Source: Paraconexibacter algicola
Lineage (GTDB): Bacteria > Actinomycetota > Thermoleophilia > Solirubrobacterales > Solirubrobacteraceae
Reading direction: 5' to 3'
Length of the DNA: 64,000 nt
NCBI RefSeq assembly: GCF_003044185.1
Contig: NZ_PYYB01000001.1
Span: forward strand, 62,001-126,000
Shown here: one piece after another, positions 36,444 through 40,937 of the stretch
Layout of the letters: each line of letters begins with the position of its first letter
Position numbering within the stretch: the first letter of the stretch is position 1
The notes under the pieces: generated by a model
The model's input: the letters and a program-made list of their open reading frames with translations, nothing else
Database searches by the model: none
What the model was told of the DNA's origin: nothing
Made by a program: the position numbers and the translations under genes

Positions 36444-37307
36444 TCATCCTGCCCGAGGCGGAACCTCGTCAGTCCGAAGATGGCGCCGAGCCTCGGCCAG
36501 CGGGTTGCCCGCGTCGTCGGACTCGTGGCCGGGCGGCCAGGTGCCGAGGTAGTTGTTGCGTCCGCCGTCGACGTCGATGACCGACCCGGTCGTGTAGTCG
36601 CCCGCCGGGGAGGCGAGGTGCGCGACGAGCCAGGCGATCTCCTCCGGGCGTCCGAGCCGCTGCAGCGGGACGGTCGCGGCCGCGCCATCGACGATCGGCT
36701 TCGGGTACTTCGTCAGGAAGGTGTCGGTGCCGAACATGCCGGCGGCGATGGCGTTGAGCTTGATGTCGAAGCGCGCCCACTCCACGGCGAGCACCTTCAT
36801 CATGTTGTCGACCGCCGCGCGGGCCGCGCAGGAGTGCACCATGCCCGGCAGCCCGTTGTGCGGGGTGAGCGTGACGCTGAGGATCTTGCCGCCGCGCTGG
36901 GGGATCATCGCCTTCGTCGCGACCGCGTGGGTCATCAGCCAGGTGCCCTCGACGTTGAGCCGGATGACCGTGCGGAAGCCCTTCGGGGTGATCGACTCGG
37001 CCGGGACCATGAACTGGCCGCCGGCGTTGTTGACGAGCAGGTCGATGCGGCCGTGCTCGGCGACGACGCCGTCGACGAACGCGTCGACCTGGTCCTCCTC
37101 GCGGATGTCGCACGTCGCGGCGCGCACGTTGCCCGCGGGCGCGAGCGCGGCGGTCTCCTGCAGCGGCTCCTCGCGCCGCCCGCAGACGATCACCTGCGCG
37201 CCGAGCGACGCGAGCTCCAGCGCCGTGACCCGGCCGAGACCGGAGCCGCCGCCGGTGACGATGCAGACCTGGCCGTCGAGCAGCCCCTCCCGGAACACCT
37301 GGCTCAT
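36444..37307 (-). CDS. SDR family oxidoreductase (2,4-dienoyl-CoA reductase-like)
   Basis: A 287-residue short-chain dehydrogenase/reductase. The cofactor motif TGGGSGLG (residues about 18-25) and NNAG (about 92-95) are present. At the active site the usual Y-x3-K is replaced by S-x3-R (HSCAARAAVDNMMK), as in a peroxisomal-2,4-dienoyl-CoA-reductase-like subgroup. The residues after the fold carry the family's G-R-P-E-E-I-A and the cofactor-proximal VIDVDGG. It probably reduces an unsaturated acyl-CoA with NADPH, fitting the nearby beta-oxidation genes. A GAGGAT hexamer 7 nt before the ATG suggests a leaderless start. Confidence 0.88.
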   Translation of the reverse strand: MSQVFREGLLDGQVCIVTGGGSGLGRVTALELASLGAQVIVCGRREEPLQETAALAPAGNVRAATCDIREEDQVDAFVDGVVAEHGRIDLLVNNAGGQFMVPAESITPKGFRTVIRLNVEGTWLMTHAVATKAMIPQRGGKILSVTLTPHNGLPGMVHSCAARAAVDNMMKVLAVEWARFDIKLNAIAAGMFGTDTFLTKYPKPIVDGAAATVPLQRLGRPEEIAWLVAHLASPAGDYTTGSVIDVDGGRNNYLGTWPPGHESDDAGNPLAEARRHLRTDEVPPRAG

Positions 37308-37335
37308 GGGCGCGATCCTCGCACGCCCGCGGGGC

Positions 37336-37341
37336 TAGGGT
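37336..37341 (+). promoter_or_regulatory. -10 hexamer TAGGGT
   Basis: TAGGGT ends 10 nt before the ATG at 37352, allowing a leader of only about 3-4 nt. No ribosome-binding site is seen. Confidence 0.4.
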
Positions 37342-37351
37342 GGCGGCTGCG

Positions 37352-38455
37352 ATGGCCCCTCCCCCGCGCCGCGTCCTGGTGGATGCCCTCAACGTGCTCG
37401 GGAGCCGTCCGGACGGGTGGTGGCGCGACCGCCCCGCCGCGGTCACCGCGCTCGTGGCCGCCGTCGACGCGTGGTGCGCGCGGACCGGCGCGCAGGCGAC
37501 CGTCGTGGTCGACGGGGCGCGCAGGCCCTACGGGGCGCCGGTGCTCGCGCGGGTCGTCACCGCGGACGGTCCCGACCCGTCGCGCCGCGACGCCGCCGAC
37601 GACACGATCGTCGCGCTGCTGCAGCGGGACCGCGACCCGGGCGCGGTGACCGTGGCGACCTCCGACGGCGGATTGCGCGAGCGGGCCACGGCGCTCGGCG
37701 CACGGGTCGTCGGCGCGCGCACGTTCCGCGAGCGCGTCGACGGCGACCCGCTCGTCGCGGTGACCTCGGCCCGCGACCCGCGCGTCGCCCGCGCCGTCGC
37801 GCTGCTCCGCGCGGAGGATCCGGAGGAGCGCGTCGTCGCGCTCGAGGACGCGGACGTGATCGCGGAGGCGACCGCGCTCGGCGCCCGACCGGGCCTGCTG
37901 CTCGGCGGCCGGGACGGCGCGCCGCTCGCCGACGACGCCCGCCGCGCGCTCGGCGTGCTCGGGCAGGCCGCCGACGTCGTGGCGCTCGTGCCGCGCCCGG
38001 CCGCGCCCGACCCGGGGGAGCTCCCGGCGGGCGCGCTCGTCCTCGTGGGCGTCCGCGACGCCGGGAACGTCGGGACGATCGTCCGGACCGCGCTGGCGCT
38101 CGGCCGCCCGCGCGTCCTGCTCGACGAGGGGTGCGCGTCGCCGTGGTCGCGGCGGGCGCTGCGGGCGGCGGCGGGCGCGACGCTCGCGCCGGGCCTGGTG
38201 GCCCGCGGCGCGGACCTCGCGACGCTCGCCGCAGTCCCCGCCCGTCCGGCGCTCGCGGCGGCGGTGCCGCGGGGCGGCGTGCGGCCGGAGGAGCTGCCCG
38301 CGGGAACGGTCGTCGTCCTCGGGAGCGAGCAGCGGGGCCTCTCCGACGAGGAGATCGCGTGCTGCGACCACACGGTCACCATCCCCGCGGGCGGCTTCGA
38401 GTCGCTGAACGTCGCGGCGGCCGCGGCGATCCTCGGGTACGCGACGCGGCGCTGA
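37352..38455 (+). CDS. fusion of YacP-like NYN nuclease and SpoU/TrmH RNA methyltransferase
   Basis: A 367-residue two-domain protein. Residues 1-130 match the YacP/Rae1-like NYN (PIN-fold) domain: RRVLVDALNVLG, ATVVVDGARR, RDAADDTIVALLQ and TVATSDGGLRERATALGARV carry its acidic metal-binding residues. Residues about 135-367 match a SpoU/TrmH 2'-O-methyltransferase: VGVRDAGNVGTIVRTALALG (motif 1), VVLGSEQRGLSDEEI (motif 2) and VTIPAGGFESLNVAAAAAI (motif 3, trefoil knot). In Firmicutes the two functions are neighbouring genes (yacO/rlmB and yacP). No stop or frameshift at the join. It likely acts on ribosomal RNA or ribosome-bound mRNA in the cytosol. Confidence 0.87.
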   Translation: MAPPPRRVLVDALNVLGSRPDGWWRDRPAAVTALVAAVDAWCARTGAQATVVVDGARRPYGAPVLARVVTADGPDPSRRDAADDTIVALLQRDRDPGAVTVATSDGGLRERATALGARVVGARTFRERVDGDPLVAVTSARDPRVARAVALLRAEDPEERVVALEDADVIAEATALGARPGLLLGGRDGAPLADDARRALGVLGQAADVVALVPRPAAPDPGELPAGALVLVGVRDAGNVGTIVRTALALGRPRVLLDEGCASPWSRRALRAAAGATLAPGLVARGADLATLAAVPARPALAAAVPRGGVRPEELPAGTVVVLGSEQRGLSDEEIACCDHTVTIPAGGFESLNVAAAAAILGYATRR

Positions 38456-38525
38456 GCAGGGGCCCCGACGAGGAAGGGGCATTCCCCCGATGCCCGCCGC
38501 GGGGCGGCGCCGCAGAGTGCGCTCC

Positions 38526-40937
38526 ATGCCCTCCATCCGCCCGCCCCGTCCCCGTCCCGGAGCCGCCCTTCCCGCCGCCGCGCTGGCCGGTGCGCTCATC
38601 GCCCTGCCGTCCGCGACCGCCGTCGCCGCCCCCGCCGGACCGGCGAACCTGCGCGTCACCGCGGTCACGGCGACGACCCCGTCCGTCGCCGCGGGCGCGA
38701 CCCTGGCCGTCCGCGACACGACGCGCAACACGGGCCGCGCCCGTGCCCGGGCGTCCCACACGCGGTACTACCTGAGCGCCGACGTGGCGGCATCGCTCGC
38801 GGCGCGCCGCGCCTCGACCGCCGACCCGCGCGGCGCCGACGCGGACGTCGCGCTCGTCGGTGCCCGCGCGGTGCCCGCCCTGCGACCCGCGCGTGCGGCG
38901 CGGGCCCGGCGCACCGTGCGGGTGACGGTGCCCGCCACCGTGCGGCCCGGGACCTACCGGCTGCTCGCGTGCGCCGACGACCGGGGCGCCGTCCGCGAGG
39001 CACGGGAGACCGACAACTGCCGTGCCGGCGGCCCGGTCACCGTGTCGGGCGGGACCGCCGCGACCGGGGACTTCACGTCGTTCAACGACGCCCTCGCCGT
39101 GCTGCCCGACGCCCGGATCGCGTCGCAGCTCCCCTCCCTGAAGGGCCTCGGCTGCACCCCCGCGGTCCCCCGCCGCGCGGTGAAGGATCTCCGTGCCGCG
39201 CTGCGCGGTGCGCGGGCCGCGCTCACGGTGCAGGTCGGCGCGCCCGCCATGGCGGCGTTCGCGTCCTCGACCGAGGCGCGCACGGCGGACGCTGCGCGTG
39301 GCGCGGCGCTCGGCGCGCTGACCGAGGGCAACCTGGGCGCCGCACTCGTCGCCCAGCTGCGCGCCGCCGAGCTCGCACCGCACGACCGCGACGTGCTCCA
39401 GAACACGGCCGCGCTCGCGACCAGCGCCGGCCTGCCCAACGAGGCGCTCGCGCTGCTCGACGCGGCGACGAAGGCCGACCCGGTGACGCCGCTCGCCTCG
39501 GGACTGGACCGTCGCGCCGGTGCCGCGCAGATCCGGGCGGTCGCGCTGCAGCAGCTCGGTCGTGCCGCGGAGGCCCGGACCGTGCTCGCCCGGGTGCCCG
39601 CGCTCGATCCCGCGCTGGGCGCGGAGGCCGCGTCGTCGCAGGCCGCCGACCTCCTGTGCGCCGGCGGCAGCGACGCGGCGGTGATCGCGAAGCTCCGCCG
39701 GTCGGCCAAACGGCGGGCCACGGCGACCGGTGAGCCGACGCCGCCGACGGCCTTCGACGAGTCCGGCGGGCGGGCCAGCACGCTGCGGCCGTTCCGGTTC
39801 CCGGCCAACCCCCGGCAGGCGGCGGAGCTGAAGCCGTACTACGACGACCTCGCGATGGGCCGCGCCGCCGCGGAGATCGACGCGCGCAACCAGGCCCGCG
39901 ACGAGGTCCAGGCGCGGCTGCGCGACCGCGAGGTCGGTCCGGCCCAGCGCCGGCGCGAGCTCGCGCTGCGCCGGGTCATCAGCCAGGTCCACGCGCGTCC
40001 GGAGGCGAAGGCGCTGTTCGACGCGGCCGGCCGCGAGGTCGACGAGGCGATCACGATCAGCAACGCGTTCTTCAACCCGCCGGACGGCCAGGAGAGCCGC
40101 TGGCTGGAGCTGTCCCGCGCCGCCTCGGACGCGTGCCGCAACGTGCGGCCCAACCCCCGGCCGTGCGAGATCCAGCGGATGCGGGAGACCTGCACGCCGG
40201 AGGTGAAGGCCGCGACGGCACGGATCGTCGACCACCTCTCCCGGGCCCGCGCGTACGCCGAGCAGGAGCTCGCACTGCAGTCGCGGATCATCAGCGGCCT
40301 CGCGTCGAACTTCGACGACCCGGACAACCGCGCCGAGCAGGTCCTGCTGATCCAGAGCCTCGAGCACATCGCGTCGCTGAGCTTCATCGGACCGCTGCAG
40401 GGCTGGGGCGTCCATCTGCGGCGGACCTACGACGAGTGCGTCGAGTCCCCCGACGGCTCGGCCGACCCCGCGGCGGCCACGCCCGACGCCGCCGCCGGGA
40501 GCATCGAGGGCCCGGAGGCGTGCAACGCGGTGACGAAGTCGTTCAACTTCGTCCTCGACACGAGCAAGCTCATCGACCTGCCGACGAAGCTCCCGAAGAT
40601 CAAGGTCAACTGCGAGCGCATCCAGGTCGCCTACGAGTTCGGGAAGTCGAACTGGGCGCAGGCGTTCGCGCAGGTGGACTGGAAGTTCCGCGCCGGCACG
40701 GTGACCGCGTTCGTCGGGGTCCGCGGGAAGATCGAGATCGCCGGCCGCGAGGACCAGCTCAAGGGCGGCCTCTACATCACGGCGTCGAAGGACGGGGTCG
40801 AGGACCTCGGCTTCCGCGTCAGCCCGGGCAGCTCCGTGAAGATCGGGCCGGTCGTCGAGATCCAGACCAAGGCCGACTGGGACCTGTCGTTCGTCCCGGG
40901 CTTCCAGGCGCTCGGGGGGCTGGTCTCCGGGGTCTAG
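38526..40937 (+). CDS. large secreted protein with CARDB-like and helical-repeat regions
   Basis: An 803-residue exported protein. Signal peptide residues about 1-38 (LPAAALAGALIALPSATAVAA). Residues about 40-170 resemble a CARDB domain (LRVTAVTATTPSVAAGATL, then YYLSADVA, TYRLLACADD, ETDNC). Residues about 230-400 form TPR-like helices (ALTEGNLGAALVAQLRAAEL, NEALALLDAATKADP). The C-terminal 400 residues are unassigned; they contain charged helices and eight cysteines. No enzyme motif is seen. The ATG at 38526 gives a proper signal peptide. Its TAG stop shares the tetranucleotide CTAG with the stop of the convergent NUDIX gene. Confidence 0.78.
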   Translation: MPSIRPPRPRPGAALPAAALAGALIALPSATAVAAPAGPANLRVTAVTATTPSVAAGATLAVRDTTRNTGRARARASHTRYYLSADVAASLAARRASTADPRGADADVALVGARAVPALRPARAARARRTVRVTVPATVRPGTYRLLACADDRGAVREARETDNCRAGGPVTVSGGTAATGDFTSFNDALAVLPDARIASQLPSLKGLGCTPAVPRRAVKDLRAALRGARAALTVQVGAPAMAAFASSTEARTADAARGAALGALTEGNLGAALVAQLRAAELAPHDRDVLQNTAALATSAGLPNEALALLDAATKADPVTPLASGLDRRAGAAQIRAVALQQLGRAAEARTVLARVPALDPALGAEAASSQAADLLCAGGSDAAVIAKLRRSAKRRATATGEPTPPTAFDESGGRASTLRPFRFPANPRQAAELKPYYDDLAMGRAAAEIDARNQARDEVQARLRDREVGPAQRRRELALRRVISQVHARPEAKALFDAAGREVDEAITISNAFFNPPDGQESRWLELSRAASDACRNVRPNPRPCEIQRMRETCTPEVKAATARIVDHLSRARAYAEQELALQSRIISGLASNFDDPDNRAEQVLLIQSLEHIASLSFIGPLQGWGVHLRRTYDECVESPDGSADPAAATPDAAAGSIEGPEACNAVTKSFNFVLDTSKLIDLPTKLPKIKVNCERIQVAYEFGKSNWAQAFAQVDWKFRAGTVTAFVGVRGKIEIAGREDQLKGGLYITASKDGVEDLGFRVSPGSSVKIGPVVEIQTKADWDLSFVPGFQALGGLVSGV

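Follow-up and report, generated by a model that had tools for sequence, protein, structure and literature searches.

A YacP-type NYN nuclease domain and an accessory SpoU methyltransferase domain joined in a single reading frame of Paraconexibacter algicola

Nucleases of the YacP type and SpoU methyltransferases are known individually, and in Bacillus subtilis partners of these two kinds are genetically linked. There, yacO (rlmB) and rae1 (yacP) are co-transcribed, their efp suppressor effects are non-additive, and the link between Rae1 and RlmB is thus already genetically supported (PMC6613710). B. subtilis Rae1 (PF05991, PDB 5mq8/5mq9) is a stand-alone protein of about 170 residues, and the R166P change in its C-terminal part behaves as a loss of function (PMC6613710). 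A NYN protein from another setting is a Mn-dependent RNase that requires its conserved Asp (PMC11346440). SPOUT enzymes are generally dimers, and human mitochondrial RNase P contains a working NYN and SPOUT pairing, PRORP with TRMT10C (PMC10941002). In the 64,000-nucleotide stretch of P. algicola DNA analysed here (the window), the first-pass annotation had proposed that a Rae1-like NYN nuclease and a SpoU RNA methyltransferase are fused in one gene at 37352-38455. This was borne out: one open reading frame lies at these coordinates, both domains are present, and the quoted NYN motifs and three SpoU motifs are all found in the protein. GC content by codon position indicates a single coding frame kept from end to end, including the junction. 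A GTG located 12 bases 5' of the ATG is a possible alternative start; the stand-alone relatives begin near the ATG. The features are as follows, in window positions.

36444..37307, minus strand: divergently oriented SDR dehydrogenase, with 44 bp separating it from the start of the fusion, kept in the genus without the fusion
37352..38455, plus strand: NYN-SpoU fusion gene, 367 aa, ATG at 37352, TGA ending at 38455, alternative GTG at 37340
37352..37744, plus strand: NYN_YacP (Rae1-like) nuclease domain (PF05991), aa 1-131; homology to stand-alone 125-aa genes stops at aa 130-131; Rae1 fold match with Z 16
37376..37432, plus strand: LVDALNVLGSRPDGWWRDR, with catalytic D11 and N14 and the subfamily signature RPDGWWRDR
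37502..37522, plus strand: VVVDGAR, with acidic D54, a position that is D or E in every homologue
37589..37609, plus strand: DAADDTI, with catalytic D83, conserved in 101/101
37655..37675, plus strand: ATSDGGL, with catalytic D105, conserved in 101/101
37745..37762, plus strand: junction DPLVA/V, a linker of about 5 residues followed by the GTG codon (V137) at which stand-alone SpoU orthologues start
37760..38452, plus strand: SpoU half, aa 137-367, 48-60 % identical to the stand-alone SpoU proteins of genomes G005, G207, G230 and G084
38036..38440, plus strand: SpoU_methylase catalytic domain (PF00588), aa 229-363, Pfam 3.4e-25; genome match G000:C1:100036-100440
38066..38089, plus strand: SpoU motif 1, NVGTIVRT (N239, R245), beginning at aa 239
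38315..38344, plus strand: SpoU motif 2, VLGSEQRGLS, beginning at aa 322
38390..38428, plus strand: SpoU motif 3, GGFESLNVAAAAA, beginning at aa 347

The NYN half resembles Rae1 in its fold and in the layout of its acidic active site. When the whole fusion protein was scanned with Pfam, NYN_YacP matched aa 77-130 below the cut-off of 24.6 bits (2.1e-4, 21.8 bits), and aa 1-136 scanned alone passed it marginally (1.4e-5, 25.6 bits). This weak score is a matter of divergence rather than chance, because the stand-alone homologues that were scanned (n=4) pass at 33-45 bits over profile positions 1-131 of 166, and because the fold matches that of Rae1. The AlphaFold model of aa 1-131 has block mean pLDDT values of 76-98, and its best structural match in VIA-align is Rae1 (Z 16.0, 2.3 A, 120 residues, 24 % identity), covering Rae1 residues 2-130; all other structural rows have Z below 9. 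A sequence search of solved structures with the NYN half returned chance antibody matches only. The positions D11, N14, R19, P20, D21, W23, W24 and R27 are invariant in 101 of 101 NYN homologues, and the fusion has all of them. Absence of an NYN_YacP match for residues 1-130, or of the acidic residues from homologues, had been named beforehand as fatal to the assignment. The match was found, marginal by Pfam and confirmed by the Rae1 fold, and the site D11, N14, D/E54, D83 and D105 is present in the fusion and in all 101 homologues. In the NYN tree, no branch is longer than that of the fusion's NYN half (2.05), and judging from this branch length the domain may be under relaxed constraint. It is also the sole PF05991 match in the genome, so that no further YacP-type domain is detectable in the organism.

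In one respect the NYN half differs clearly from Rae1, which has an extra C-terminal region and whose gene shares an operon with rlmB. That region (about residues 131-170, including R166) is absent from the fusion, which is of the short type. It is equally absent from a family of stand-alone proteins of about 125 aa, here called mini-NYN (VDGMNVIGSRPDGWWRDR), which belong to the same subfamily, share the signature residues with the fusion, and match its residues 5-131 with mostly about 38-53 % identity (order and beyond). Stand-alone genes of this family carrying the RPDGWWRDR signature are widespread (loci L038-L117, for example L046, L057 and L089), with hosts in Mycobacterium, Solirubrobacterales, Acidimicrobiia, some Chloroflexota and alphaproteobacterial bins. 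Among the family genomes 84 of 146 have a mini-NYN; in other genomes of the same genus no match was found. A comparison of the loci revealed no conserved gene neighbours. In contrast to the fusion, SpoU adjoins the stand-alone mini-NYN in 0 of about 100 loci, and among the 80 matches listed from genome_contigs none has SpoU fused to or near it. In an uncultured Dehalococcoidia (OX638292.1, L052:5980-6912, plus strand), NYN_YacP (46.8 bits) is followed by a GNAT acetyltransferase (75.1 bits) in one open frame, and the mini-NYN domain therefore acts like a module.

The SpoU half is of a different kind from the B. subtilis partner of Rae1. It shares with RlmB/YacO (TIGR00186) the SpoU catalytic domain and motifs, but the substrate-binding part differs. 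Its score against the RlmB model, 52.7 bits, is far below the equivalog cut-off of 160.15 (NCBIfam), and SpoU_sub_bind (PF08032) gives no Pfam match up to E 1. A separate canonical RlmB, with PF08032 and 181.2 bits, is encoded on another contig of the same genome (L002); on these grounds the RlmB identity of the SpoU half was rejected. The genome contains further SpoU genes: an MRM3-like one (L004), L003, which reads as TrmL by sequence, and L006. In its N-terminal part (137-225) the SpoU half has a divergent substrate-binding region that appears similar to the MRM3/TsnR type. The closest solved-structure relatives by sequence are of this same type (PDB 2i6d, 7qiu, 3gyq and MRM3 9hcc); for the SpoU half the AlphaFold model has low confidence. 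The PF22435 substrate-binding domain has no match in the fusion and a weak one, 19.8 bits against a cut-off of 27, in the G207 orthologue. The N-terminal region of MRM3/TsnR-type enzymes appears to resemble that of a fusion orthologue, whereas that of the fusion is divergent and has NYN attached.

The accessory subfamily to which this half belongs is rare, being present in 5 of 146 family genomes including that of the window. Its stand-alone members in G005, G207, G230 and G084 have the same motifs and the same start (TSARDPRV) as the fused half, but carry no NYN domain. The first residues of these orthologues, (A/V)TSARDPRV, correspond to the fusion protein from residues 137-138 onward, and no NYN lies upstream of them. 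In the fusion protein aa 131 is the last residue with NYN homology and 137 the first with SpoU homology, which leaves a linker of about 5 residues. As the orthologues start at residue 137, at the GTG codon, the fusion is an end-to-end merger that is almost linker-free. On the sequence, this internal GTG (37760) could also yield the SpoU half alone.

A survey of fused forms in actinobacteria had been suggested. It gave no further fused forms among the genomes covered. With the whole protein as query, we searched 146 family, 399 class and 396 phylum genomes at E <= 1e-27 and 201 order genomes at 1e-10, and the sole genome with the two-domain form was that of the window. These genome sets overlap and scoring took in only a part of the candidates in each genome, so that rare distant fusions could have been missed. 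Neither the genus survey nor the 80 matches listed from genome_contigs contained a fused relative. The first-pass annotation had also known of no described fused protein, and none was found in the papers searched; a YacP-type NYN and a SpoU domain in one chain is an architecture for which the searchable literature yielded no description. As the evidence stands, NYN-SpoU joins two ordinary modules and is confined to a single species.

We consider it probable that the product is a bifunctional RNA enzyme confined to this lineage, in which a mini-NYN endoribonuclease and an accessory SpoU 2'-O-methyltransferase were merged end to end. The N-terminal domain would be a short, metal-dependent YacP/NYN endoribonuclease with a PIN-like fold and D11, N14, D54, D83 and D105 as its acidic site. 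The C-terminal domain would act as an accessory 2'-O-ribose methyltransferase of MRM3/TsnR-like build, distinct from RlmB. A stand-alone mini-NYN gene would have been joined to a stand-alone accessory SpoU gene in the lineage of the window. Since SPOUT enzymes are generally dimers, a dimeric fusion would bring two nuclease domains to structured RNA, possibly rRNA or tRNA recognised by the SpoU part. Methylation and cleavage might then act on one RNA or RNP; that both halves share a substrate, and that their activities are coupled, is inferred from the fusion alone. The catalytic residues are intact in both halves, which argues against decay. The fused form occurs in one genome only, so there is no conservation that would show selection for coupling.

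The locus is flanked by a conserved SDR/thiolase block on one side and by a conserved 3-hydroxyacyl-CoA dehydrogenase gene on the other. Relatives carry other genes in the gap between them, and the fusion thus occupies a variable site. In G164, G140 and G201 the SDR gene is conserved without NYN-SpoU, with thiolase and acyl-CoA dehydrogenase genes nearby; because it is kept in the genus without the fusion, the SDR is a mere neighbour. Directly 3' of the fusion, in the same gap, lies a gene for an 815-aa protein with a CARDB domain (38490-40937, plus strand), which has a partial relative in G140 (L154, 44 % over aa 53-251). In G164, of the same genus, the matching gap contains the ORF of an apparent IS110-type transposase (L156:7114-8247), and such an element may be a reason for gene turnover at this site. 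A role in defence was considered and rejected, as there was no PADLOC match and the PHROGs match was negligible.

This variability is one of several observations that would fit an accidental, lineage-specific fusion, in which each domain acts independently on RNAs of its own and their joining is functionally meaningless. The restriction to one genome and the very short linker at natural gene ends point the same way. So does the behaviour of the separate genes: in G005, G207 and G084 the mini-NYN gene sits elsewhere in the genome, apart from the accessory SpoU, and co-occurrence is not above background across the 146 family genomes (of the 4 genomes with the accessory SpoU in unfused form, 3 have mini-NYN, versus 84 of 146 overall). 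A useful fusion would look just the same, however, with natural ends joined and both active sites intact, and we regard a meaningless link as a possible but rather doubtful reading.

It was also considered that there are in fact two genes. At the junction, frame +1 contains a TGA at 37761 that overlaps the GTG at 37760, and the SpoU orthologues begin exactly there; a one-base indel within 37745-37760, arising by evolution or by assembly error, would convert such an overlapping gene pair into the fusion, and an extra base in the assembly would then be hiding the NYN stop. This reading requires an indel inside about 15 bp, yet nearby genes of the window show long matches to proteins of the same genus, and these are free of frameshifts. 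The A that follows the GTG is set by a conserved Thr codon, so that the overlap is partly forced, and no relative was found in which mini-NYN and SpoU genes are adjacent. An assembly indel behind the fusion is therefore unlikely.

The first-pass annotation had taken the fusion, in view of the adjacent rlmB and yacP genes of Firmicutes, as Rosetta-stone evidence that ribosome-associated cleavage and 23S rRNA 2'-O-methylation, or the recognition of one ribosome site, are linked. On this reading a ribosome A-site nuclease would be joined to the 23S rRNA Gm2251 methyltransferase. The domain types agree, and in B. subtilis the two genes share a pathway as suppressors of efp. What stands is the union of a YacP-like NYN nuclease domain with a SpoU methyltransferase; the correspondence to the Firmicutes pair does not, because the SpoU half lacks the RlmB score and PF08032 that the separate RlmB has, the NYN half is short, and in about 100 loci no stand-alone mini-NYN gene is next to SpoU. 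With the C-terminal part missing and R166P inactivating, the A-site function of Rae1 is not simply transferable to the fusion. In this genome the NYN domain and rlmB do not share an operon, rlmB lying on another contig, and the Rosetta-stone inference is weak in any case since the fused form is known from one genome. We thus find this interpretation improbable. Similarly speculative is a single-chain quality control by modification or cleavage, in which SpoU would mark correct RNA by 2'-O-methylation and NYN would cut unmarked RNA at the same site; we give it very little credence. Least credible of all is a bacterial analogue of human mitochondrial RNase P, suggested because a NYN domain, an SDR and a methyltransferase of the SPOUT superfamily lie side by side at 36444-38455 and match by class the components of the described three-part enzyme (PRORP, TRMT10C and SDR5C1; PMC10941002): the synteny of the SDR, kept in the genus without the fusion, led us to reject the parallel, the NYN half is of the YacP type, and the SpoU half fits SpoU models and not TRM10. 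The human enzyme likewise combines a NYN nuclease with a SPOUT methyltransferase, but has separate subunits, a TRM10-type base methyltransferase and a PPR domain, which is absent here; the arrangement at 36444-38455 is probably a coincidence.

Our preferred reading of the P. algicola protein remains that of a bifunctional RNA enzyme. If its two activities share a substrate, the fusion would offer a simple way of approaching the RNA target of mini-NYN proteins, an uncharacterised family that is widespread in actinobacteria.
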